64,000 bases of DNA from Flavivirga sp. 57AJ16 (GTDB lineage: Bacteria; Bacteroidota; Bacteroidia; Flavobacteriales; Flavobacteriaceae), in assembly GCF_028736925.1 (NCBI RefSeq), contig NZ_JAQZAT010000007.1:124001-188000 (forward strand), written 5' to 3'. This document shows, piece by piece, positions 14,174-39,087 of this stretch (the stretch's first letter is position 1; each line of letters begins with the position of its first letter). The translations under genes and the position numbers were made by a program. Under the pieces are notes generated by a model, which made no database searches, was not told the origin of the DNA, and saw nothing but the letters and a program-made list of their open reading frames with translations.

Positions 14174-14716
14174 ATGTATAAGTTGACCTTGAAAGAATAC
14201 AAAAGTCTTTTTAATAAGCTATACACCTCGTTGTGCCTATTTGCCAACAATTATTTAGAAAACCTAGAAGTTTCAAAAGACATCGTTCAAGATGTATTTA
14301 TAAAAATTTGGGAGGACAAAATCGAATTTAAAAATGAAAACACCATCAAGTCTTATCTGTATACATCAGTAAAAAATAAATCCTTGGATTATCTTAAAAG
14401 CAAGCGAGTCAAAACAACCGATCATTTTTCAATAGATGAAATGGAACAACTTGAAACAGAGCCCTTCTTTTTAAGGGAGGTAGTCATTCTAGAGACCTCC
14501 AAGATTATTGAAGAGGCTATCAATACCCTCCCAAACCGTTGCGCACAGGTTATAAGGTTAAGCATTAAAAATTATTCAAATGCTGAAATTGCCGAAGAGT
14601 TGAATCTTTCGGTCAACACGGTTAAGGCTCAAAAAAAAATCGCTTACAAACGTCTCAAACCCCTCTTAAAAGATTATTTTATTCTTATTGCCTTCATTTT
14701 CGACGCTGCCAATTAG
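14174..14716 (+). CDS. ECF RNA polymerase sigma factor (FecI-like)
   Basis: This 180-residue protein contains sigma-70 region 2 (LEVSKDIVQDVFIKIWEDK, residues about 35-55, then IKSYLYTSVKNKSLDYLKS) and region 4 (LPNRCAQVIRLSI...NAEIAEELNLSVNTVKAQ helix-turn-helix, about residues 118-155). It belongs to the Bacteroidota group of ECF sigmas that act with a FecR anti-sigma and a SusC-type TonB-dependent transducer. The downstream fecR and susC genes complete that signalling set. It would direct RNA polymerase to the downstream susCD genes when the transducer senses substrate. A probable terminator lies between it and fecR. Confidence 0.93.
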   Translation: MYKLTLKEYKSLFNKLYTSLCLFANNYLENLEVSKDIVQDVFIKIWEDKIEFKNENTIKSYLYTSVKNKSLDYLKSKRVKTTDHFSIDEMEQLETEPFFLREVVILETSKIIEEAINTLPNRCAQVIRLSIKNYSNAEIAEELNLSVNTVKAQKKIAYKRLKPLLKDYFILIAFIFDAAN

Positions 14717-15054: not shown

Positions 15055-16224
15055 ATGAACTCCATTTTTAATAATATTATAACACTTTCTAAACGTGTAG
15101 CAACATCGCTATTGCGTGATGAGCAACCTACAGATCTACAGAATTCAGAGTTGTTTAATGATCAAGACAAACAATATATTCTAAATAATTTAACAAACAA
15201 TGAACCCATAAAGCAACGTCTTAATCTAGCAAATCAAATAGATAAGGAGGCCGATTGGAAAAAGTTAAGATCTAAAATGGATATTCCAGTAGTGAAAATA
15301 TATTGGAAATACGCCGCTGCTGCAACCATAATCATTGCCCTGACCTCAACCTACTTCTTGAGAAACACCTTATTTAATAATGCTACCGAACCGACATCAC
15401 CAATCATCGTGAACAACCAAATCCAACCAGGTAAAGACAAAGCAACCTTAACTTTGGAAACAGGCGAAAGTGTAGCACTCGAAAAAGGCATAACCTACCA
15501 AACCCAAAACGCCAAAAGCAACGGAGAAGAAATCGTATATGAAGCTGGAGATAAAAGTACATTTGAAATAGACTATAATACATTGACCATTCCAAGAGGT
15601 GGCCAATTCCAAGTAACCCTTTCGGACGGTACCAATGTATGGTTGAATTCCGAAACCCAACTAAAATACCCTGTAAGTTTTACCGACGGCTTAAGCCGGC
15701 AGGTAGAGCTTGTTTATGGTGAAGCCTATTTTGATGTGTCACCAAGTACAGGGCATAAAGGTTCTGACTTCAAAGTGTACCATAACCAGCAGGAAGTAAA
15801 GGTATTGGGCACGGAGTTCAATATTAAGGCCTATAATAATGAAGCAAATATCTACACAACCTTGGTAGAAGGTAAAGTGGAGATAAACACACAATTGGGT
15901 AACAATACTTTGTCACCGGGAGAGCAGTCGGTTTATAACGCAGTAAATAATACGATAAAAGTAACTTCGGTTGAGATAAGGCCAGAGACAGCATGGAAAG
16001 AAGGGGTATACATATTTAAGGACAAGGGTTTAAAGAACATTATGCAAACATTGTCCCGTTGGTATGACATGGATGTGGTATTTGAAAACAAGGAACTAGA
16101 AGATATCAAGTTTATTGGCTCACTATATAAAAACCAAAAAATTGTTGATGTTCTCAATGATATCAAGAGTTTTGGAGTTATCAAAAATTATAACATTCAT
16201 AATAAAACTATAACACTTGAGTGA
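15055..16224 (+). CDS. FecR-family anti-sigma factor with DUF4974
   Basis: This 389-residue inner-membrane regulator has a cytoplasmic N-terminal region (about 1-80), a single membrane helix (about residues 84-102, YAAAATIIIALTSTYF) and a periplasmic FecR domain. Motifs typical of the family are ATLTLETGESVALEKG, NTLTIPRGGQFQVTLSDGT, VWLNSETQLKYPVSF, VELVYGEAYFDVSP and VLGTEFNIKAY. The C-terminal DUF4974 domain (YIFKDKGLKNIMQTLSRWYD) is thought to contact the transducer's signalling domain. It would hold the upstream ECF sigma inactive until the SusC transducer signals. A 47-base block (15703-15749) is identical to the second fecR gene in this window. Confidence 0.93.
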   Translation: MNSIFNNIITLSKRVATSLLRDEQPTDLQNSELFNDQDKQYILNNLTNNEPIKQRLNLANQIDKEADWKKLRSKMDIPVVKIYWKYAAAATIIIALTSTYFLRNTLFNNATEPTSPIIVNNQIQPGKDKATLTLETGESVALEKGITYQTQNAKSNGEEIVYEAGDKSTFEIDYNTLTIPRGGQFQVTLSDGTNVWLNSETQLKYPVSFTDGLSRQVELVYGEAYFDVSPSTGHKGSDFKVYHNQQEVKVLGTEFNIKAYNNEANIYTTLVEGKVEINTQLGNNTLSPGEQSVYNAVNNTIKVTSVEIRPETAWKEGVYIFKDKGLKNIMQTLSRWYDMDVVFENKELEDIKFIGSLYKNQKIVDVLNDIKSFGVIKNYNIHNKTITLE

Positions 16225-16298
16225 ATGAAAAATAATTTTAATACTTTTTAAAAAAAGAGAAAAGTATTAGAACACAAATATATCGATAAAACAAAAAA

Positions 16299-16344
16299 GA
16301 GAGCGAAGTCAAACATTTGGCGATGGATCAACTTCGTCCCTTTT
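16299..16344 (+). promoter_or_regulatory. Conserved susC leader hairpin, copy 1
   Basis: Between fecR and susC a stem can be drawn: CGAAGT at 16304-16309 pairs with ACTTCG at 16331-16336, separated by a 21-base loop containing ACATTTGGCGATGG. It is extended by an imperfect outer stem (GAGA against TCCC) and followed by TTTT. A closely similar element with compensatory changes lies at 35427-35470 before the second susC. Position, T-run and covariation suggest an RNA element such as an attenuator or protein-binding leader. Confidence 0.55.
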
Positions 16345-16388
16345 CAAAGTATTAATTAAAACAATGTCTAACTAACACAAGCAAATTT

Positions 16389-19300
16389 ATGAAAATTAAA
16401 TTAACTATTGCCCGTTCTCTCTCTCGAAAACGGCTACTCTTAACGTTTATGAGAACATTTATTTTCTTATTGTGTACAACTGTTTTTAGTTTCAATATAG
16501 AAAATAGTCTAGCACAAGAAAAAGTAACTATAGACCATGACAAAATACTTTCGGTAGACGAGGTCTTCAACATTATTATTGACCAAACCAAATACAGTTT
16601 CATTTATCCAGCAAATCTATTTAAAGATGCGCCAAAAGTAGAAGTTAAACAAGGTAAAATAAGTGTAGGTAAGCTGTTGCAGAAAACTTTGCCAAAAAAT
16701 GAGTTTAATATAATATTGGGAGTAAATGATCGTATTACCATAAAGAAAAAAAGCGAAAGTCAACAAATTTCTGTTATTGGTAAAGTTGTCGATGTAAAAG
16801 GCATGCCTATTCTAGGAGTTACAGTGCTTATAAAAGGAACAGCACAAGGTACATCTACCGATTTTGATGGTAGTTTTAGAATTTTAATTCCAAACCCGGA
16901 AAATGTTTTGCAGTTTTCTCACCTTGGTTATAAAACTCAAGTAGTTGTTATTAGAGATCAATATGATATTAAAGTAGTTTTAGAAGAGGAAGCCAGTGAA
17001 TTAGAAGAGATAACGGTAATTAGTACTGGTTATCAAACCCTTAAAAAAGAACGTGCTACGGGTTCATATGTTAAGCCAGATATGAAAATATTAAATTCCC
17101 GAGATGGTGCTTATACAGATTTGGTGAGCAGATTAGAAGGCACAGTACCAGGGCTTACTATTATTACTGGTTTTGATGCAGAAGTTGCAAATCCAATAGG
17201 TAATGGTGTTACTAAGCGAAACAGTATTATTAGAGGAAGAAATAGCCCGCTTTTAGACTTTAATCCGCTTTATGTTGTAGATGGGGTGCAAGTTCCTTAT
17301 TTTGATATTGTAAATTCTGAGGATATTGAGGATATAACAGTATTAAAAGATGCCGCTGCCACTGCGGTTTGGGGTGCAAGAGCCTCTAATGGTGTCATTG
17401 TAGTAAACACAAAACGAGGTAAGAAAAATGATAAAATACAGGTTAACTATAAAACCTTTTTTAACTTTCAAGGAAAACCTGATTTTGATTACGATCCTGT
17501 ATTAAGTAGCGAGCAATATATACAAACGGCAAAAGAACTTTTTGCTCCAGATATTAACAGTTGGGGTTCATTGGCAACAAGGTTTGTAGCACCTCACGAA
17601 CAAATACTTTATGACCAGTATCGTGGTATTATATCAGAGCCTGAGGCCAATGCACGTTTAGATAGTCTAGCATCTATAAATAATATAGATCAAATTAAAG
17701 ACCTTTGGTACAGAAATGCCTATAGTTTAGGGCATACCATGTCAGTATCAGGAGGAAGCAAAAACTATTCTTTTTATGGAGCTTTAGCCTATAGAAGTTT
17801 AGTAAACAACCAACCAGGAACTAAAAATAACACCTATAATTTAGCCCTAAATCAAGATTTTCAACTTAACGACAATATTAACATAGCTTTAAATACATCT
17901 ATTTCAAATAGTGTTTCAAGTAGAAAAAATTCACTTTCCATTGGTAATAGAGCATTGCCTTATCTGTTATTTAAAGATGCGAATGGCAACGATATAAATA
18001 TGCCATATATGTTCGGGTGGTCTGAAGATGTTCGTTTGGAATACGAACAATTGGGTGGCATTAATTTAGATTACTATCCTCTAAAGGAAATTGATTACAA
18101 GCATGGTAAAAATAACAATTGGAACATTAATCTTACGGGTAATTTAGATGTTAAAATAATGAAAGGGTTGCGTTTTCACGGGACTTATGGTTATATTACA
18201 ACTCCAGGAACATCTACTAATTACGAAGATTACAAAACTCTTAGTAAAAGAAAATTTATATTAAGTATGGCGATGGCGCCGCCATATGTGCCAGAAACCA
18301 CCTATTTTTTTCCAAATACACAAGGTACAACACAAGCACCTACAGGCGGAACATACATCTCATCTAATATAGAACAGCATAATTGGACAGTTAGAAATCA
18401 ATTAATTTATTCTACAAGTCTTCGAAATGAAAAAGATTTTCTAAATATCCAAGTAGGTCAAGAAGCTAATGAAGCTCTAACAGTTAATAAAACAAGTGTT
18501 TTAGAAGGTTATGATGAGCATCTGCAAACCTATGCACTAATAGATTATTACACAGCTGCAAACGAGTATATATATCCATCAATTACAGGTTTTGGGGCAT
18601 ATCAAACACCTCCTTTTACCTTTGATGAAGAAAAATCGCGCTTTACGTCCTTTTTTGCTTTAGCGGATTATTTGCTCAACCATAAATATGGAATTAACTT
18701 AAGTTGGCGTAGAGATCATAGTAATCTTTTTGGCAACGATAAATCAACGCAAAACAAACCTACTTATAGTGTTGGTGGTAAATGGATTCTTGGTCGAGAG
18801 AATTTTATACAAAATGTTGAGTGGATTAATGAAATGGCATTAAGAACAACATTTGGTGTTTCTGGTAATTCCCCGTTTGCAGGAACAGCTACTTCCCAAG
18901 ATGTTTTAACAGCACCTTTCTCTATCCCTGTAACAGGAAATTATTTAAATCTTTCTGGAGCTGCAAACAAGAAGTTAGGATGGGAGATTACCAAGACTAT
19001 AAATACAGGACTTGATTTTTCAATATTGAAAAACAGAATTACTGGAAGTCTGGATTTATATTGGAAAAAAACAACAGATCTATTAGGGACAGAAAGACCC
19101 AATCCGTTCACAGGGTTTAGTTCAGGCATTCTTTCAAATATTGGAAATGCTACCAACAAAGGAGTTGAACTGTCGCTTAGAACACATAATGTAAAAACAG
19201 ATAATTTCAACTGGATTACCAATTTTGTTTTCAGTCATAATAAAAATAAATTGGATTCCTATTCGGGAGCAAGTTCATATTACAGTACAACTAATGGAAG

Positions 19301-20003
19301 AATATCTGCCCCTTATGTAGAAGGATACTCATTAAACCCATTATTTGCATATCGTTATGGAGGGTTGGATGAAAATGGAAATCCTCAAATCGAGCTTTCC
19401 GATGGTACCAAAACCACAGACCCTTTTGGAGATGAGTTGACTATTGATGATATCTTGTACATGGGAAGTACGGTTCCTAAAGTTACTGGAGGATTAACAA
19501 ATATTTTCTCTTACAAGGATTTTTCACTAACAGCAAACATCATTTACAATTTTGGACATGTAATGAGAAATGACGTGAACACTTTCTTTACAAGTCGATT
19601 AACTGGAGGCACCTCTTTTAGCGGCAATATATCGACTTCTTTTTTAAATAGATGGAAAGAACCAGGAGACGAAGGGTTTACAGATATACCACGTTATTAT
19701 GCCGATTCTTATGATGATTACATTAACCGTAATACACAATACTATACTTTGGCAAACACCAATGTTTTAAGTGCTTCTTATGTAAAACTACGTGATGTTA
19801 CACTTACTTACAGTCTGCCACAGAAGGTTACAAGTCAATTAAATATTCAAGGATTGAGTTTTAGTGCTCAAGTAAGTAATTTTTTGCTTTGGACTGAAAA
19901 CGATGAGGGAATTGATCCGGAATTTCATGAATACAGATATGGTTCAAGAACTCTTCCTCCAAGTAACCACCCGTTTAATTTTAGTATGAATATTACATTT
20001 TAA
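16389..20003 (+). CDS. SusC/RagA-family TonB-dependent outer-membrane transducer
   Basis: This is a 1204-residue outer-membrane receptor. After a signal peptide with a long charged front (second ATG at 16449) comes an STN secretin/TonB N-terminal domain (about residues 50-120, ILSVDEVFNIIIDQTKYSF), which signals to FecR. A carboxypeptidase-D-like domain follows (about 128-195, GKVVDVKGMPILGVTVLIKG), then the plug with the SusC signature (YVVDGVQVPYFDIV; DIEDITVLKDAAATAVWGAR; ASNGVIVVNTKRG), then the beta barrel ending in NFSMNITF. It imports large ligands with its SusD lid. The downstream M16 peptidase hints at peptides, as for RagAB, but the substrate is not readable from the sequence. It is followed by susD after 10 bases. 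Confidence 0.95.
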   Translation: MKIKLTIARSLSRKRLLLTFMRTFIFLLCTTVFSFNIENSLAQEKVTIDHDKILSVDEVFNIIIDQTKYSFIYPANLFKDAPKVEVKQGKISVGKLLQKTLPKNEFNIILGVNDRITIKKKSESQQISVIGKVVDVKGMPILGVTVLIKGTAQGTSTDFDGSFRILIPNPENVLQFSHLGYKTQVVVIRDQYDIKVVLEEEASELEEITVISTGYQTLKKERATGSYVKPDMKILNSRDGAYTDLVSRLEGTVPGLTIITGFDAEVANPIGNGVTKRNSIIRGRNSPLLDFNPLYVVDGVQVPYFDIVNSEDIEDITVLKDAAATAVWGARASNGVIVVNTKRGKKNDKIQVNYKTFFNFQGKPDFDYDPVLSSEQYIQTAKELFAPDINSWGSLATRFVAPHEQILYDQYRGIISEPEANARLDSLASINNIDQIKDLWYRNAYSLGHTMSVSGGSKNYSFYGALAYRSLVNNQPGTKNNTYNLALNQDFQLNDNINIALNTSISNSVSSRKNSLSIGNRALPYLLFKDANGNDINMPYMFGWSEDVRLEYEQLGGINLDYYPLKEIDYKHGKNNNWNINLTGNLDVKIMKGLRFHGTYGYITTPGTSTNYEDYKTLSKRKFILSMAMAPPYVPETTYFFPNTQGTTQAPTGGTYISSNIEQHNWTVRNQLIYSTSLRNEKDFLNIQVGQEANEALTVNKTSVLEGYDEHLQTYALIDYYTAANEYIYPSITGFGAYQTPPFTFDEEKSRFTSFFALADYLLNHKYGINLSWRRDHSNLFGNDKSTQNKPTYSVGGKWILGRENFIQNVEWINEMALRTTFGVSGNSPFAGTATSQDVLTAPFSIPVTGNYLNLSGAANKKLGWEITKTINTGLDFSILKNRITGSLDLYWKKTTDLLGTERPNPFTGFSSGILSNIGNATNKGVELSLRTHNVKTDNFNWITNFVFSHNKNKLDSYSGASSYYSTTNGRISAPYVEGYSLNPLFAYRYGGLDENGNPQIELSDGTKTTDPFGDELTIDDILYMGSTVPKVTGGLTNIFSYKDFSLTANIIYNFGHVMRNDVNTFFTSRLTGGTSFSGNISTSFLNRWKEPGDEGFTDIPRYYADSYDDYINRNTQYYTLANTNVLSASYVKLRDVTLTYSLPQKVTSQLNIQGLSFSAQVSNFLLWTENDEGIDPEFHEYRYGSRTLPPSNHPFNFSMNITF

Positions 20004-31610: not shown

Positions 31611-32156
31611 GTGAAAGAACTAGATAACAATTTTTTGAGTAGTAAAGATTTAAAGAAAATATTTTATTCACATTATGAGTCTTTGGTGGTGTATGCAAAG
31701 AGGTTTATATTTTCTATGGATGCATGTGAAGATTTGGTTCAAGATGTTTTTGTCGAACTATGGGAAAAGGAGGTGAAATTTCCTGATGAAGTTTCATTAA
31801 AAGCCTATTTATATAAAGTTGTTCGTAATAAATGCTATAATATTATAAAGCATAACAAAGTAAAAAATAAATATGCTGAAAATATTAAACATGCTATTGA
31901 GGATGATAATCTTTTTTTAAAACAAATAGTAGAGGAAGAAATTGTAAACCATTTATATAAAGCTATTGAAAAACTGCCAGAAAGAAAAAAAGAGATCATA
32001 AAGTTAAGCCTTAAAGGTTTAAAAAATAATGAGATTGCTGAAGAGTTAGGTATAAAACTCCAAACGGTCAAAACATTAAAGTCTCAATCGTATAAAATTC
32101 TGAGGGAACAATTTGCAGAGTTAAGCACTTTTATCTACTTTTTATTGATGGACTAA
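31611..32156 (+). CDS. ECF RNA polymerase sigma factor (FecI-like), second locus
   Basis: This 181-residue sigma factor starts at GTG 31611; no ATG lies near. Region 2 is seen as FSMDACEDLVQDVFVELWEK and VSLKAYLYKVVRNKCYNIIK, and region 4 as LPERKKEIIKLSLKGLKNNE with the helix-turn-helix IAEELGIKLQTVKTLKSQ. It resembles the first sigma factor of the window in layout but differs widely in sequence. It is the head of a sigma, FecR, SusCD signalling set and should activate the second locus when its anti-sigma factor releases it. Confidence 0.92.
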   Translation: MKELDNNFLSSKDLKKIFYSHYESLVVYAKRFIFSMDACEDLVQDVFVELWEKEVKFPDEVSLKAYLYKVVRNKCYNIIKHNKVKNKYAENIKHAIEDDNLFLKQIVEEEIVNHLYKAIEKLPERKKEIIKLSLKGLKNNEIAEELGIKLQTVKTLKSQSYKILREQFAELSTFIYFLLMD

Positions 32157-32365: not shown

Positions 32366-33538
32366 ATGATTGATTTTTTTACGATATCAAAACTAATTAT
32401 TAAAAAGTATTTGAAGGTTTTAAATGAAGCCGATAAAAATCAGTTCAATAAATTCAGTGTTCAATATCCATTTTTAAAGGATATTAAAATAGAGTCCTTA
32501 ATGGACAAGGTAGAACAGTATTCATCAATCAACAAAGACAAAGCTTGGGAAGCTATTGAGGATAAAGTACTTAAAAAAGACCCGGCAGTTATTCCATTAC
32601 AAAGAACGCCTTGGATTAAGTATGCAGTTGCTGCAACAATTATTGGAATTTTATTTTCAGTCTATTTAATAAAAATCAATTATTTCGGTTCTACAGAAAA
32701 AGTTGTTCCGGTAATAGTTAATATTGATACAATTGAACCAGGTACAAACAAAGCTACTTTGACTTTAGATGATGGATCCCATATTGTTTTGGAAAAGGGA
32801 GAATCATACAACACTAATGAAGCTAGTAGCAATGGCGAACAGATAATTTATAAGTCTGGACAGAGAACCTCATCCGAAATAGCATACAATTATTTAACAA
32901 TACCAAGAGGAGGGCAATTTAACATTAAGCTATCGGACGGTACTAAAGTATGGTTAAATTCAGAAACACAGTTAAAATACCCAATTAGTTTTATAAAAGG
33001 AGAAATACGACAAGTAGAGCTTGTTTATGGTGAAGCCTATTTTGATGTGTCACCAAGTACCGAGCACGAAGGTTCAAAATTTGTGGTAAGAAATCAAAAG
33101 CAGGATATAGAGGTATTGGGTACTGAGTTTAATATAAAGGCATATAAAGATGAAACAACCATATATACAACTCTTGTAGAAGGTAGGGTGTCAGTGTCTT
33201 CTGCACAAACAAATAAAGTATTAAAGCCAAATCAGCAATCAAAACTAAATCTTTTAGATAATTCTATTTCTGTTAATGAAGTTGATGTGTATAATGAGAT
33301 TTCATGGAAAGAAGGTGTATTTAGTTTTAATGGAAAGACGCTTCAAGAAGTTATGAAGGTTTTGTCTCGCTGGTATGATGTAGATGTAACTTTTGAAAAT
33401 GGAATTGATAAGAAAGAGGAGGAGTTCGTTGGTCTTTTTAGTAAAGATAAAGGCATAGAAAACATTTTAAAAACAATGAAAAATTCAGGAACAATAAATA
33501 ATTATGAAGTCTATGGTAAAAAAGTAATACTCAACTAA
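32366..33538 (+). CDS. FecR-family anti-sigma factor with DUF4974, second locus
   Basis: A 390-residue homologue of the first FecR. The cytoplasmic N-terminus is followed by one membrane helix (about residues 84-103, KYAVAATIIGILFSVYLI). The periplasmic FecR core has ATLTLDDGSHIVLEKGESY, YLTIPRGGQFNIKLSDGT, VWLNSETQLKYPISF and VLGTEFNIKAYKD. DUF4974 is at the C-terminus (VFSFNGKTLQEVMKVLSRWY). Bases 33014-33060 are identical to 15703-15749 of the first fecR, more than the rest of the genes would predict. It probably restrains the upstream sigma factor and listens to the STN domain of the SusC at 35515. A T9SS gene unusually separates it from susC. Confidence 0.93.
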   Translation: MIDFFTISKLIIKKYLKVLNEADKNQFNKFSVQYPFLKDIKIESLMDKVEQYSSINKDKAWEAIEDKVLKKDPAVIPLQRTPWIKYAVAATIIGILFSVYLIKINYFGSTEKVVPVIVNIDTIEPGTNKATLTLDDGSHIVLEKGESYNTNEASSNGEQIIYKSGQRTSSEIAYNYLTIPRGGQFNIKLSDGTKVWLNSETQLKYPISFIKGEIRQVELVYGEAYFDVSPSTEHEGSKFVVRNQKQDIEVLGTEFNIKAYKDETTIYTTLVEGRVSVSSAQTNKVLKPNQQSKLNLLDNSISVNEVDVYNEISWKEGVFSFNGKTLQEVMKVLSRWYDVDVTFENGIDKKEEEFVGLFSKDKGIENILKTMKNSGTINNYEVYGKKVILN

Positions 33539-33621: not shown

Positions 33622-35334
33622 ATGACAAAAATTACACTATTTATTTTAGTATGCTTAACAACTTTTATTGTTAACGCCCAAACAACTGTTTTTCAGGAAA
33701 ATTTTGAAACAGGCAATTCAGCAACACAATCTGTAGAAAATTGTAATGACGGGGATAGCGATTTTTTTATCAGAACAAATGGTTCAGATATAAGTTCAAA
33801 CTACGAGGTATCTGATAAGGAAGGAGATTACTTTTTTGCAGCTCAAGATTTAGATGGAGATTGTGGAAATATTACTCAAACGTTATTGTTTGATGATATT
33901 AATATATCAGGATATACAAGTTTAGCATTGTCGCTTCTTGCTGCAGAAGACCAAGCAGATGATGGATTAGGAGATTGGGATCCTGAAGATATGGTTTCAA
34001 TTGCTGTTGATTATGATAATAGTGGTACGTTTACTAAAGTATTGCAATTTGCTGCAGACAATTCCGCTAGTAATCGAACTCCTGGATTGGATGCAGATTT
34101 TGATGGCACTAATGATGGTACACAAAACCTTACAAGTGCTTTTGCAGAATTTACAGCACCTTTAGGTACAGGAACTGTAATGGATGTGTTAATAACATTT
34201 ACACTCACTTCTGGAGAGGAAGACATTGCTATTGATGATTTTCGTATTATAGATGGGGTGCCTCCATCTGTGGGTTTTGATACTATTACCACAAACTTAG
34301 AAGAAACAGATGCTACACAATCAATATCAATTCCAGTAACGTTGCTGGGCTATTCAGGTAGTAATGTTTCCTTAAGTGTTTCTGTAGATGGTTCTAGTAC
34401 AGCAGATGCAGGAGATTATACTTTAAATACGAGTACGCTTACTTTTACAGGGAATGGAACACAAAATATTTTAGTTGACATTCATGACGATGCCGATACT
34501 GGTGAATTAGAGTCTTTAGTGTTGGTTATGTCTGAAACGACCTCAACAGGTAGTACGTTGTTGAAAGATACACATACTATTTTTATTCAAGATGATGACT
34601 TTTTAGTAATTAATGAAGTTTTAACTAGACCGGACAGTGACGCTAATGGAGATGGAACAAGTAGTTCTTCAGAAGATGAGTTTATTGAGATCATTAATAA
34701 CAGTGGTTCGAGTATAGATATTTCAAATTATGAGATTCACGATGGTGCAGAAATGAGACATGTGTTTCTTTCTACAACAATTCCAGCAGGAGGATCTATA
34801 GTAATATTTGGTGGAGGAACTCCAACTGGTATTAGTGGTTTAGTGCAAACAGCAAGTACGGGCAGTTTTGCTCTTAATAATGGTGGTGATACGGTAACAC
34901 TTTACAATGGTGTAGGAGATATATTGTTACAACATGTATTTGGTGCTACACCAAACCTTTCCGATGGGTCTTTTGCAAGAAACCCTGATATTTCAGGAGC
35001 ATTTGTATTTCACACTACTATAGCAACTAATCCGGTAAAGTATTCACCAGGCTTATTTAATGCAGATGGAACTACTTTAAGCACTAAGGAAAATAGAATA
35101 TCACAAGATTTATTAATTTACCAAACTAAATACAATACACTAAAAGTAAAAGGGTTAGAGGATTCTAATGCTAATCTTAAAATGTATTCAGTATTAGGAA
35201 AGGAAATAGCAAGTGAAAGTTTATTAAATAATAAAGAGATTGATTTAACAAACTTATCAACCGGTATTTATTTTGTAAGAATTCAAGATAATAATGGTAT
35301 TTATTTAAAGAAAATATTCCTCAGGGGAAAATAA
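33622..35334 (+). CDS. Secreted lamin-tail-domain protein with T9SS type A sorting signal
   Basis: This 570-residue protein has a Sec signal peptide (TLFILVCLTTFIVNAQ). The N-terminal module (about 25-210) resembles a jelly-roll domain found in secreted Bacteroidota proteins (VFQENFETGNSA...DIAIDDFRIIDG). A Calx-beta-like region follows (about 215-320). Next comes a lamin-tail domain (LVINEVLTRPDSDANGDGTS, EDEFIEIINNSGSSIDISNY, IPAGGSIVIFGGG). The end is a type A T9SS sorting domain (LKMYSVLGKEIASESLL, LSTGIYFVRIQDNNGIYLKK). Lamin-tail domains in bacteria often accompany extracellular nucleases and phosphatases, which fits the EEP proteins of this locus. It is likely surface-displayed; its enzymatic or binding role is unknown. 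Confidence 0.85.
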   Translation: MTKITLFILVCLTTFIVNAQTTVFQENFETGNSATQSVENCNDGDSDFFIRTNGSDISSNYEVSDKEGDYFFAAQDLDGDCGNITQTLLFDDINISGYTSLALSLLAAEDQADDGLGDWDPEDMVSIAVDYDNSGTFTKVLQFAADNSASNRTPGLDADFDGTNDGTQNLTSAFAEFTAPLGTGTVMDVLITFTLTSGEEDIAIDDFRIIDGVPPSVGFDTITTNLEETDATQSISIPVTLLGYSGSNVSLSVSVDGSSTADAGDYTLNTSTLTFTGNGTQNILVDIHDDADTGELESLVLVMSETTSTGSTLLKDTHTIFIQDDDFLVINEVLTRPDSDANGDGTSSSSEDEFIEIINNSGSSIDISNYEIHDGAEMRHVFLSTTIPAGGSIVIFGGGTPTGISGLVQTASTGSFALNNGGDTVTLYNGVGDILLQHVFGATPNLSDGSFARNPDISGAFVFHTTIATNPVKYSPGLFNADGTTLSTKENRISQDLLIYQTKYNTLKVKGLEDSNANLKMYSVLGKEIASESLLNNKEIDLTNLSTGIYFVRIQDNNGIYLKKIFLRGK

Positions 35335-35426
35335 GTTTTTAGGGACTGAAAAATTTCCCAGTCAAAAATAATTATATTGGTAGTGAATAAAGAGTGCAAC
35401 TTAAGGTAATAAATAAAATAAAAAAA

Positions 35427-35470
35427 GGGAGCGAAATGAACATTTGGTCGTGGCTCAATTTCGTCCCTTC
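35427..35470 (+). promoter_or_regulatory. Conserved susC leader hairpin, copy 2
   Basis: GGGA-G-CGAAAT (35427-35437) pairs with ATTTCG-TCCC (35458-35467), leaving one bulged G and a 20-base loop containing ACATTTGGTCGTGG. In copy 1 (16299-16344) the sixth pair of the inner stem is G-C instead of A-T, on both sides, which preserves pairing. The element lies about 50 bases before the susC ATG in both loci. Confidence 0.6.
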
Positions 35471-35514
35471 ATCTTGTATAACTAAACTAATGTCTAATTA
35501 AACAAAGTAAATTT

Positions 35515-38500
35515 ATGAAAATTAATTTAATACTAGTTCGTTGTTGTTTTCAAAAAACGAATCTAGTTAATATTATGAGAACATTTATATTTCTATTGTG
35601 TACAACCGTTTTTAGTCTCTCAACTGATAAATCTTTCTCACAAGACAAAATAAAGATCACAGAAGACCAAACTGTTACTGTTGATAAGGTTTTTGAGATT
35701 ATTAAGAACCAAACAAACTATAATTTTATTTATCGAAAAAAGATTTTTAAAGATGCACCAAAAGTGCAATTAAAAAAAGGAGAAATACTTATAACAGAGT
35801 TGTTGAAAAAAAGCTTCTCTGGTAGTAATGTTAAATATAAACTAAATGATGAAGGCGTAATTATTATTCAAGAAATTGATTCACAGGAAAAAGCATCGAT
35901 AAATAGTTTGCAGGGGTATGAGGTGTCTGGCACAATCAGAGACCAAACGGGTCTTCCTTTGGCAGGAGCCAATATAGTTGAAAAAGAGGTTGACAATAAT
36001 GGAGCCCAAACAGATTTTGATGGGAACTTTTCTTTAACGGTGCGTGACCAAGATGCTATACTTGTTGTCACTTACATTGGTTTTGTTACTAAAGAAATTC
36101 CTGTTAATGGAAAAACCTCGTTTACTATAACTTTAGAAGAGGATACAGCGCAATTAGATGAGATTGTTATTGTTGGTTATGGTGCACAAAAAAAGGTTAA
36201 TTTAACAGGGGCTGTGGGGGTTATAACTGCGGAAGAAATCAATGATAGGCCCGTTATAGATCTTGCAAAAGCTTTACAAGGAGCTGATCCTTCCGTGAAC
36301 CTTACTTTTAATACAGGCGTGTTGGATTCTGGATACAATATAGATGTAAGGGGGTCTGCATCCTTGAATAGATCCAACCCTTTGGTTATTGCAGATGGTA
36401 TAGAGGTAAATTTAAACCAAATAAACCCAAATGATATCGAATCTATTTCTGTTCTAAAGGATATTTCAAGTGCTGCAATATATGGAGCCAGAGCATCGGC
36501 AGGTGTTATTCTTATTACTACAAAATCAGGAAAAAATACTAATAATAAGGTTAAGATTAATTTTAATACTAGAACAGGGTTTGCTCAAAATACAACATCA
36601 ACGGATTTTATAACTACGGGCTATGACCATGTTAGTATCGTAAATCAATTTTATGAAGCACACGAAGGAAGACAAATGCTAGACTATAATGCTGAAGAAA
36701 TGCAAATGCTATACGATAGGAGAAATGATAGGGTTGAGCATCCAGACCGCCCATGGGTTGTTGTAGGTGACGATAATAAATATAGATATTATGGTAATTT
36801 TGATTGGTTTAATTATTTCTACCGAAAAACGCGTCCTGAAAATGAACATAATATTTCAATTAGTGGAGGCAATGACAAAACAACCTATTTTGTAAGTGGA
36901 AGGCAAATGAAGCAGGATGGTATATATAATATTTACCATGATAATATGACTTTAGGAACCTTTCGAACAAATTTAAAAACAGAGATTAAGCCATGGCTTC
37001 GATACACTAGTAGTATTACCTATTCCAACAGAATTTATAAATACGCAGGAAGATTTCTAGAACAGGGAACAGTTAGTGAATTGTCAAGAAAAGCCATAGC
37101 ATCATTTGTGCCAAGAAATCCAGACGGATCCATAGTACAGTATCCCACTCAATTCCTGCCAGGTTCTCCTATAGGTGGTGGTCATGGAGGATTTTTAACT
37201 GCAGATAATTCACGAAATTCTAGAGGCACAAAGACTTTTATTATATCAAATCAATTTGATTTTGATTTAAGGAAAGATTTATCGGTTACAATGAATTATG
37301 CATATAAATATGAAAATAGGTTAATAAAATACCGTAGTAATACATTTGAATATTCTGATGAGCTAAATGTGTTTAATACCTATCAGGCAGGTTCTATTTA
37401 TGATTATTACAGAGAACAGCATAGAGGCAGAAATAATCATAACATAAACTTGTATACCACATATAACCCTTATTTGAACGATAATCATAACTTAAAAGTG
37501 GTTGTTGGAACTCAATATGAAGAGTACCGAAATACAGATTTGTCGGTAAGACAATATGACTTGTTAAATGAAGATTTAAGCACATTCGCAGTAGGGGCTG
37601 GAGAAATAGAATTAGCACAATCGATAAATGCATTTAAGAACTTAGGTTTCTTTGGACGCTTAAATTATGATTATAAAGGGAAATATCTTTTTGAGGTTAG
37701 TGGGCGTTTTGACGGAACATCTAGATTTAGAAAAGGAGAACAATGGGGCTTCTTTCCTTCTGCATCATTAGGATGGAGAATGAGCGAGGAAGGTTTCTGG
37801 AAAGGAATAACCCCAATAATAAACAACAGTAAGCTTAGATTATCTTATGGAAGTTTAGGTAATCAGCAAGTCGACAATTATGCCACTTTTGATGAAATAT
37901 CACCTAATATTCAAATGGATTATACTTTTGATGGAATTTCAAGAGCAAGTAGAGCAGGAATATCCGATCCTATTTCTTCTTCTTTAACATGGGAAACCGT
38001 ATCTATGCTTAATGCGGGGCTGGATTTATCTTTCTTAAATAATCGTTTAAACTTAACATACGATTATTATATAAGAGATACAAAAGATATGTTGCAACAG
38101 TCATTAACACTTCCTGCAGTATATGGTGCTGATACGCCTACGGCTAATACAGCAAATCTACAAACTAAAGGATGGGAATTAGACCTTTCATGGAAAGATC
38201 AGTTTAATTTGGGAGAAAAGCCTTTTAAATATAATGTAGGATTTACTTTAGGGGATTACGTAACAAAAGTTACTAAATACAATAATCCAGATAAATTAAT
38301 AGATGAATTTTATGTTGGTCAAACACTAGGTGAAATGTGGGGGTATAAAGTAGCAGGATTATTTGCAAGTGATGAATATGCTGCAGCTTATCAAGCTGCA
38401 ATAGATGATAGCGCTGTAAATAGGAGAGTGTATAGTGGATCGGTAAACAATTACTTACAAGCAGGAGATGTCGAGTTTATAGATCTTAATGGAGATAACG

Positions 38501-39087
38501 TTATTAATGAAGGTTCAGGTACTGTAAGTGATTCAGGAGATAAGAGAATAGTTGGAAATAGTTTACCACGCTATTCTTATTCTTTTAGAATTGGCGCAAA
38601 CTGGAAAGGCTTTGAAATATCGGCCTTCTTCCAAGGGGTGGCAAAACAAGATTGGTTTGCAAAACCGGAAACAACAGATCTTTGGGGGCCTTTTGCATAT
38701 CCAGGAGCATCTTTTATACATAAAGATTTTGCTTCTAAATATTGGACTGAAGAAACCCCTAATGCCTATTTTCCAAGACCACGAGGCTATCAAGCATATG
38801 CTGGTAGTTCTTTAAATGTTATATCGGATAGATATCTTCAAGATGTATCATACTTAAGACTAAAAAACTTGACTATTGGATATACAATTCCATTTAAGTT
38901 AAAAGGTTTAGACAAAGTTAAGGTATATGCTACTGGAGAAAATCTGTTTTACTGGAGTAAATTAAAGCGTCATACTTTAACAATTGATCCAGAACTTACA
39001 AATACCAATGCTACTTACGATGCAAATACAGGACTAGGGTATTTTTATTCTAAAACAATTTCTTTAGGTGTTAACATATCAATGTAA
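35515..39087 (+). CDS. SusC/RagA-family TonB-dependent outer-membrane transducer, second locus
   Basis: This 1190-residue receptor has the same order of parts as the first: an extended signal peptide (second ATG at 35575), STN domain (about 48-115, VTVDKVFEIIKNQTNYNFIY), carboxypeptidase-D-like domain (about 140-205, GYEVSGTIRDQTGLPLAGAN), plug (VGYGAQKKVNLTGAVGVI; NPNDIESISVLKDISSAAIY; GARASAGVILITTKSGK) and barrel ending YFYSKTISLGVNISM. The STN domain pairs it with the FecR/sigma genes upstream. Its ligand is probably the phosphoester or glycan handled by the phosphatases encoded downstream, which is inference from gene order. The SusD gene follows 21 bases later. Confidence 0.95.
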   Translation: MKINLILVRCCFQKTNLVNIMRTFIFLLCTTVFSLSTDKSFSQDKIKITEDQTVTVDKVFEIIKNQTNYNFIYRKKIFKDAPKVQLKKGEILITELLKKSFSGSNVKYKLNDEGVIIIQEIDSQEKASINSLQGYEVSGTIRDQTGLPLAGANIVEKEVDNNGAQTDFDGNFSLTVRDQDAILVVTYIGFVTKEIPVNGKTSFTITLEEDTAQLDEIVIVGYGAQKKVNLTGAVGVITAEEINDRPVIDLAKALQGADPSVNLTFNTGVLDSGYNIDVRGSASLNRSNPLVIADGIEVNLNQINPNDIESISVLKDISSAAIYGARASAGVILITTKSGKNTNNKVKINFNTRTGFAQNTTSTDFITTGYDHVSIVNQFYEAHEGRQMLDYNAEEMQMLYDRRNDRVEHPDRPWVVVGDDNKYRYYGNFDWFNYFYRKTRPENEHNISISGGNDKTTYFVSGRQMKQDGIYNIYHDNMTLGTFRTNLKTEIKPWLRYTSSITYSNRIYKYAGRFLEQGTVSELSRKAIASFVPRNPDGSIVQYPTQFLPGSPIGGGHGGFLTADNSRNSRGTKTFIISNQFDFDLRKDLSVTMNYAYKYENRLIKYRSNTFEYSDELNVFNTYQAGSIYDYYREQHRGRNNHNINLYTTYNPYLNDNHNLKVVVGTQYEEYRNTDLSVRQYDLLNEDLSTFAVGAGEIELAQSINAFKNLGFFGRLNYDYKGKYLFEVSGRFDGTSRFRKGEQWGFFPSASLGWRMSEEGFWKGITPIINNSKLRLSYGSLGNQQVDNYATFDEISPNIQMDYTFDGISRASRAGISDPISSSLTWETVSMLNAGLDLSFLNNRLNLTYDYYIRDTKDMLQQSLTLPAVYGADTPTANTANLQTKGWELDLSWKDQFNLGEKPFKYNVGFTLGDYVTKVTKYNNPDKLIDEFYVGQTLGEMWGYKVAGLFASDEYAAAYQAAIDDSAVNRRVYSGSVNNYLQAGDVEFIDLNGDNVINEGSGTVSDSGDKRIVGNSLPRYSYSFRIGANWKGFEISAFFQGVAKQDWFAKPETTDLWGPFAYPGASFIHKDFASKYWTEETPNAYFPRPRGYQAYAGSSLNVISDRYLQDVSYLRLKNLTIGYTIPFKLKGLDKVKVYATGENLFYWSKLKRHTLTIDPELTNTNATYDANTGLGYFYSKTISLGVNISM

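Follow-up and report, generated by a model that had tools for sequence, protein, structure and literature searches.

A hairpin in flavobacterial susC leaders is probably the terminator of a short antisense RNA

Two susC genes of Flavivirga sp. 57AJ16 carry a similar hairpin shortly before their start codons. What does such a structure do in a susC leader, and on which strand does it act? SusCD uptake systems are central to the polysaccharide feeding of marine and soil Bacteroidota, and the best-known control of susCD is transcriptional, by ECF sigma/FecR pairs and other regulators. We addressed the question computationally, starting from a 64,000-nucleotide stretch of contig NZ_JAQZAT010000007.1 (positions 124,001 to 188,000), which is called the window below.

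The hairpin and its copies

Both window loci have the same plus-strand gene order, in which Pfam identifies an ECF sigma factor, a FecR anti-sigma factor and, downstream, a TonB-dependent SusC receptor. At locus 1, the sigma factor (14174-14716; Sigma70_r2 and Sigma70_r4_2) is followed by FecR (15055-16224; FecR and FecR_C) and susC 1 (16389-20003; Plug, barrel and CarbopepD_reg_2). The corresponding genes of locus 2 lie at 31611-32156, 32366-33538 and 35515-39087 (Plug and barrel for susC 2). Here a plus-strand gene at 33622-35334 (LTD and Por_Secre_tail) separates fecR from susC, and the hairpin adjoins susC, not fecR.

The first-pass annotation described a hairpin in both susC leaders, with arms CGAAGT/ACTTCG in one copy and CGAAAT/ATTTCG in the other. 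We find these hairpins at 16293-16344 and 35421-35471, ending 44 nt before the ATG at 16389 and 43 nt before the ATG at 35515. Both copies also have, as described, the loop word ACATTTGG, TCCCTT ends and, downstream, the word AATGTCTAA. The accompanying statement that the loci have otherwise diverged was too strong, because the two loci are paralogous, their aligned leaders have a mean column identity of 78%, and more than the hairpin is conserved. Folded individually as plus-strand RNA, the copies are slightly better than shuffled sequences (z = -1.35 and -2.27), and with such modest values two copies alone are unconvincing. Locus 1 also has a counterpart on Confluentibacter sediminis contig NZ_QKPO01000017.1 (90.9% identity over 5853 bp), in which the hairpin (52/52) and the start-codon box discussed below (14/14) are identical. 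The gap upstream (66/68) and the susC start (301/312) are nearly identical as well, so this pair alone is weak evidence.

A covariance model and a search upstream of other susC genes, as proposed in the annotation, recovered further fecR-susC copies in other Flavobacteriaceae. Searching 299 family genomes with a pattern yielded copies in four genomes besides this one, all with FecR upstream and with the 3' arm beginning 58-59 nt before the susC ATG. A covariance model of the hairpin only, built from five sequences, had hits at E ≤ 0.5 in 73 of 397 family genomes. We inspected 51 of the listed matches, the remaining listed ones all having E ≥ 0.0086, and found a SusC-type N terminus downstream of 42. 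Of the nine others, six are unrelated and score at most 29.3 bits. FecR precedes the hairpin at L034, no gene was called at L054, where one side is a contig edge, and L047 is the FecR-SusC hairpin of L068 read on its reverse strand. A stricter genome-scan pattern gave 35 stretches, of which 21 were taken into the model search; the rest include unrelated phyla, and L300 alone was followed. A SusC-type gene lies downstream of all 21 named loci, which come from Confluentibacter, Aestuariibaculum, Leeuwenhoekiella, Zunongwangia, Winogradskyella, Arenibacter, Snuella, Polaribacter, Seonamhaeicola, Flavobacterium granuli and uncultured relatives, and FecR lies upstream of 20. The exception without FecR directly upstream is L306 of Polaribacter filamentus, where another protein ends at that place, as at locus 2. 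The insert at locus 2 is a secreted lamin-tail-domain protein with a T9SS sorting tail, and the susC-side element is intact there and in L306.

Pair changes were counted in 63 copies (55 distinct) that were aligned with an antisense-strand model, leaving out L068, in an alignment fitted to the structure. The covariation suggested by the two window copies holds across this set: 10 of the 13 stem pairs show double compensatory changes, and none of 500 shuffles reached any of five measures. Structures slid by 1-3 columns gave lower pair scores than the unshifted structure. Hairpins at these junctions fall into several sequence classes, so the element is not a single repeated sequence; class assignment by loop motif is rough and is used here as description only. 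At L040 (1501-1551) the stem and its place are conserved and the loop is unrelated to ACATTTGG, indicating that the loop word is not strictly required.

A first pattern search of the Flavivirga genome itself returned eight places, of which the seven besides window copy 1 are no further elements, with similar numbers in the control; this search missed the second copy of the window. A standard terminator scan found none because its loops are limited to 3-8 nt. A pseudoknot between the loop word ACATT and a downstream AATGT was also considered and rejected: the complement is missing at many loci, and the downstream word falls within a minus-strand hairpin, SL1, which is described below.

FecR-SusC junctions and the strand of the structure

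We assembled a set of junctions that was not chosen by the hairpin, using the FecR_C genes of the Flavivirga genome and of family genomes. The FecR_C listing covers 25 family genomes including this one, 21 of which have any. Six of the 36 FecR_C rows of the Flavivirga genome lack a locus and were not used, and those of other genomes with E above 2.6e-14 entered only if a locus was obtained automatically. The resulting 118 FecR loci comprise two without a downstream ORF, 81 with neighbours matching a SusC regular expression, 25 with STN-type receptors recognized by eye, and 10 with non-SusC neighbours, which were excluded. Four of the 106 junctions were dropped for too-short gaps, leaving 102 from 14 genomes.

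At ΔG ≤ -14 kcal/mol, a threshold that was picked after the data were seen and that 12 junctions miss, a terminator-like hairpin with a T tail is found on the minus strand at 90 of the 102 junctions and on the plus strand at 11. Looser and stricter cut-offs agree: at -6, -10, -12 and -16 kcal/mol the counts are 101, 98, 96 and 63 for the minus strand and 38, 25, 15 and 1 for the plus strand, although all of these junctions join related genes and the counts are not independent events. The Flavivirga genome contributes 27 junctions: 25 pass -14, and two fall just short (-13.5 and -13.4). As a control, codirectional junctions in 400 kb of this genome, two of which are themselves FecR-SusC, pass -14 at 13 of 73 on the minus strand and 16 of 73 on the plus strand. 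Twenty SusC/TBDT genes of this genome without FecR, picked from 86 Plug matches, have a terminator in one case on each strand and the -7 box described below in none.

Which strand carries the structure can be read from several features of the stems and their flanks. With inverted repeats defined by Watson-Crick matching only, the plus-strand stem mismatches across the 102 junctions are A·C in 76 cases, G·T in 10 and others in 30 (binomial p about 1e-13), and the 43 matches of the plus-strand model show 48 A·C against 10 G·T. An A·C on the plus strand is a G·U on the minus strand, and thus pairing is kept in an RNA read from the opposite strand. The hairpin is more stable on the minus strand at 91 junctions, on the plus strand at 8, and equally stable at 3; at locus 1 (junction L083) the energies are -18.6 (minus) and -6.6 kcal/mol (plus). 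Among the ten nucleotides flanking the hairpin on its 5' side, seven or more are A at 67 of the 102 junctions; at none are seven or more of the ten on the 3' side T. A sense-strand terminator was rejected, as no T-run lies on the plus side. One junction of the Flavivirga genome, L068 (2024-2074), is a contrary case: its hairpin resembles the window type in reversed orientation, and the match to the antisense-strand model falls on the sense strand. Even there, the minus strand has the better terminator score (-16.8 versus -11.3).

Beyond the family, occurrence within class Bacteroidia is mixed. With neighbours taken without a SusC check and with no GC-matched control, 14 of 17 junctions from further same-class genomes have a minus-strand hairpin that scores, compared with 4 of 17 for the plus strand, same-class genome G476 gives 5 of 10 and 3 of 10, other class members give 0 of 3, two further same-family junctions give 1 of 2 on the minus strand, and 2 of 14 junctions outside the class score. 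Sixteen further junctions in this range survey had short gaps. A different FecR-TBDT type has overlapping genes and no intergenic gap (L107, L110, L111 and L113), and hence no room for an antisense unit. By eye, a very short ORF is seen behind fecR in the long fecR-susC gaps of L071, L074, L075, L078 and L085, in some cases beginning like susC (M-K-I-K-stop in L071); these ORFs are perhaps remnants of earlier susC starts.

A predicted antisense RNA and competing explanations

Read on the minus strand, the hairpin, which we call SL2, is followed by a U-tract (the plus-strand A-run at 16293-16298 in locus 1). A further minus-strand stem-loop, SL1, lies between SL2 and the susC start, at 16350-16377 for locus 1 (from folding and RNAalifold) and at 35476-35503 for locus 2 (from folding). 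Its energy averages -8.0 kcal/mol as minus-strand RNA, compared with -2.2 as plus-strand RNA and -3.1 in dinucleotide-shuffled sequences. Of 75 junctions, 73 favour the minus strand and the other two show no difference. The downstream word shared by the two window leaders, which the first-pass annotation noted after the hairpin, lies inside SL1. A predicted start could be assigned to 51 of 53 copies, and the 34 with a box at the susC start entered an alignment of the antisense strand. From these copies RNAalifold returned both hairpins unprompted, with 22 pairs, 13 of which have double changes.

The box at the susC start reads TAnnTTTG on the minus strand and matches the flavobacterial sigma-A -7 box, which is placed at -12 to -5 in PMC9723704. 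At locus 1 it is TAAATTTG on the minus strand (16382-16389) and overlaps the predicted susC 1 start codon; at locus 2 a similar box, TAAATTTA (35508-35515, minus strand), is off consensus at its last base (A for G). The susC start reads CAAANNTATG at 60 of the 102 junctions and at one of 286 control-region genes, that one being a FecR-SusC. When C or T is accepted as the first base, which allows A as the last minus-strand base, the box is present at 84 of 102 junctions versus 6 of 286 control genes. The minus-strand terminator (≤ -14) and the [C/T]AAANNTATG box occur together at 77 of the 102. Flavobacterial sigma-A promoters also have a -33 element, TTG/TTTG, and this showed no clear positional enrichment upstream of the -7 box at the 84 box-bearing junctions.

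Because the box coincides with the start codon, part of its motif could be a translation signal. Both window susC genes begin (16389-16448 and 35515-35574) with a basic stretch of about 20 residues, after which come a second Met and residues resembling a signal peptide (MRTFIFLLCTTVF). This second Met, about 60 nt further on, may be the true SusC start. A second M[KR] lies within the first ~35 residues of SusC at 80 of the 84 box-bearing junctions, and at L024 the first ATG of susC runs into a stop two codons later. A susC start at the second Met would free the box from a role in translation.

Taken together, the hairpin is most probably the 3' intrinsic terminator of a short (~85 nt), two-hairpin cis-antisense RNA made from each susC leader, which would putatively repress susC. 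From the position of the -7 box, this RNA would start about 12 nt upstream of the predicted susC ATG. It would then be read leftwards, fold into the 5' AU/GU-rich SL1 and the 3' terminator SL2, and span the susC leader from about -12 to about -96. At locus 1, the spacing to the -7 box, together with the fold shared by 34 aligned copies, predicts an RNA of about 85 nt (16293-16377, minus strand) with its 5' end near 16377, give or take a few nucleotides. At locus 2, folding and the consensus fold predict about 83 nt (35421-35503, minus strand), and SL2 was assigned there from sequence and the antisense-strand alignment. Across junctions the predicted length has a median of 89 nt and a range of 66-118 nt (n = 77). 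Sequence comparison supports a minus-strand structure with a U-tract and a -7 box, and its strong link to FecR-SusC junctions; transcription, the exact ends and the repression of susC are inferred. An antisense partner of this predicted kind seems to accompany most FecR-controlled susC genes in Flavobacteriaceae.

Could the hairpin instead work in the susC mRNA? The first-pass annotation took it for a conserved, functional non-coding structure, and that part of its reading holds. It further placed the element in the sense leader, as an attenuator, protein-binding or processing site, in keeping with the covariation, the conserved loop word and the near-fixed spacing to the susC ATG. The strand evidence speaks against this placement, namely the plus-strand mismatches (A·C 76 versus G·T 10), the distribution of stability (91/8/3), the sidedness of the A-runs with no plus-strand T-run after the hairpin (0/102), and an SL1 that is weaker on the plus strand in 73 of 75 junctions, and we regard a sense-strand element as improbable. 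We give a similarly small chance to a minus-strand terminator that merely shields fecR from stray antisense transcription begun inside susC, with no dedicated small RNA. Such a terminator would by itself suffice for SL2, the U-tract and the strand bias, but SL1 is also kept as minus-strand RNA, and together with the -7 box it forms a matched unit of narrow predicted length (66-118 nt). Moreover, terminators of this kind are much rarer at other codirectional gene pairs (13/73), and the element remains by susC where another gene separates fecR.

The hairpin region might also act as DNA, either as an operator or as the ECF sigma promoter of susC, whose elements and spacing we take to be GAAC, ~17 nt and CGTC. 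Class A arms do contain TTCGTCC, and an ECF -10 motif with CGT is reported from F. psychrophilum (PMC9723704). A DNA-level element nevertheless appears highly improbable: the arms vary with pairing kept, the G·U bias is a signature of RNA, and other hairpin classes occupy the same position without TTCGTCC. The absence of the promoter motif from those other classes led us to reject the ECF promoter reading.

Known small RNAs and a possible network

The predicted antisense RNAs most resemble the DonS RNAs of Bacteroides in being short and lying opposite a susC homologue. DonS RNAs are 78-128 nt in length (PMC7366714), compared with 66-118 nt predicted here; the window RNAs of ~85 and ~83 nt fit that range, and some predictions elsewhere are shorter than 78 nt. 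Host-glycan PULs of Bacteroides are typically under ECF sigma/anti-sigma pairs, and the mechanism of DonS is described as unknown, according to PMC11697453. The RNAs predicted here are likewise tied to ECF sigma/anti-sigma susC loci, with a count of 1/20 in FecR-less susC-type genes. DonS is known from Bacteroides, whereas the present RNAs are predicted at most tested FecR-SusC junctions of Flavobacteriaceae. Compared with DonS by description only, they further stand out by a described fold of two hairpins, by falling into several sequence classes and by a -7 box that overlies the start codon of susC. Among PUL-associated antisense RNAs in general, 32 are annotated in B. thetaiotaomicron, some anti-correlated and some positively correlated with their PUL (PMC10994844).

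By analogy with DonS, the predicted antisense RNA would be made while the ECF sigma factor is held by FecR. It would pair with leaky susC leader transcripts, or its transcription would collide with polymerase, keeping susCD off. Upon release of the sigma factor, sense transcription would outrun the antisense RNA. The two RNAs are fully complementary over the leader, and strong cognate pairing is thus expected if they meet.

FopS of B. thetaiotaomicron offers a second comparison. As described in PMC11697453, FopS are multicopy sRNAs that end in a terminator hairpin, target the start region of susC mRNA and block susC translation; they are about 65-70 nt with a single-stranded 5' stretch, are intergenic in 9 of 14 cases, have several mRNA targets and are countered by RbpB. 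The predicted RNAs share with them the paralogous copies, the terminator hairpin at the end and the aim at the susC start region. However, each copy here is antisense to its own susC, and no single-stranded 5' stretch is expected, the 5' part being predicted to fold as SL1. Rfam gave no match at the gathering score in the window and none at E ≤ 1 in 40 loci, apart from a lone, meaningless microRNA listing at E 0.59 for the hairpin region; the FopS structure is deposited in Rfam (PMC11697453), its presence in the searched release being uncertain.

Like intrinsic (Rho-independent) terminators, SL2 has a stable stem with a U-tract directly after it when read on the minus strand (90/102 at ≤ -14 kcal/mol). 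It differs in its class A loop of ~20 nt, which is conserved (ACCGCNAAATGT, minus strand) in a way that a plain terminator does not need. Compared by description alone, SL2 is also like HMP2_1032, a palindromic candidate RNA near 'TonB' in gut Bacteroidetes that is a predicted terminator found only in Bacteroidetes (PMC8040213).

We found no report of such an antisense RNA family in flavobacteria in the open-licence papers searched. We therefore place the predicted RNAs with the DonS-type kind already known, with a two-hairpin structure that we did not find described in those papers. If confirmed, most FecR-controlled susC genes of Flavobacteriaceae would each be accompanied by an antisense RNA that has a defined promoter box, a pair of hairpins and a conserved loop, the Bacteroides observation of DonS would extend to another order, and a covariation-supported structure would be on offer for mutation. 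A caution also follows, in that hairpins in susC leaders should be read on the opposite strand.

A bolder extension, which we think unlikely although worth stating, is that each FecR-SusC locus of the genome encodes one of about 25 paralogous antisense RNAs with two hairpins, and that these form a cross-talking network. Each would repress its own susC strongly and others weakly through the shared SL1 (GUGUUAGUUA...UUUAAUUAAUAC), the SL2 loop, class-specific and conserved, would provide a docking site for a protein or a kissing partner, and together these RNAs would rank nutrient uptake in Flavobacteriia. Among the 27 RNAs of the Flavivirga genome (702 pairs), non-cognate duplexes have a mean energy of -17.8 kcal/mol versus -10.9 kcal/mol when the leaders are shuffled; pairing of each window RNA with the leader of the other comes to about -35 kcal/mol. 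Non-cognate pairing stronger than with shuffled leaders makes a network conceivable, and shared ancestry alone could yield the same complementarity.

Between the stop codon of fecR and the hairpin, locus 1 contains one further inverted repeat (16239-16269), TAATACTTTT...AAAAGTATTA. It has no T-run after it and is identical in Confluentibacter sediminis.
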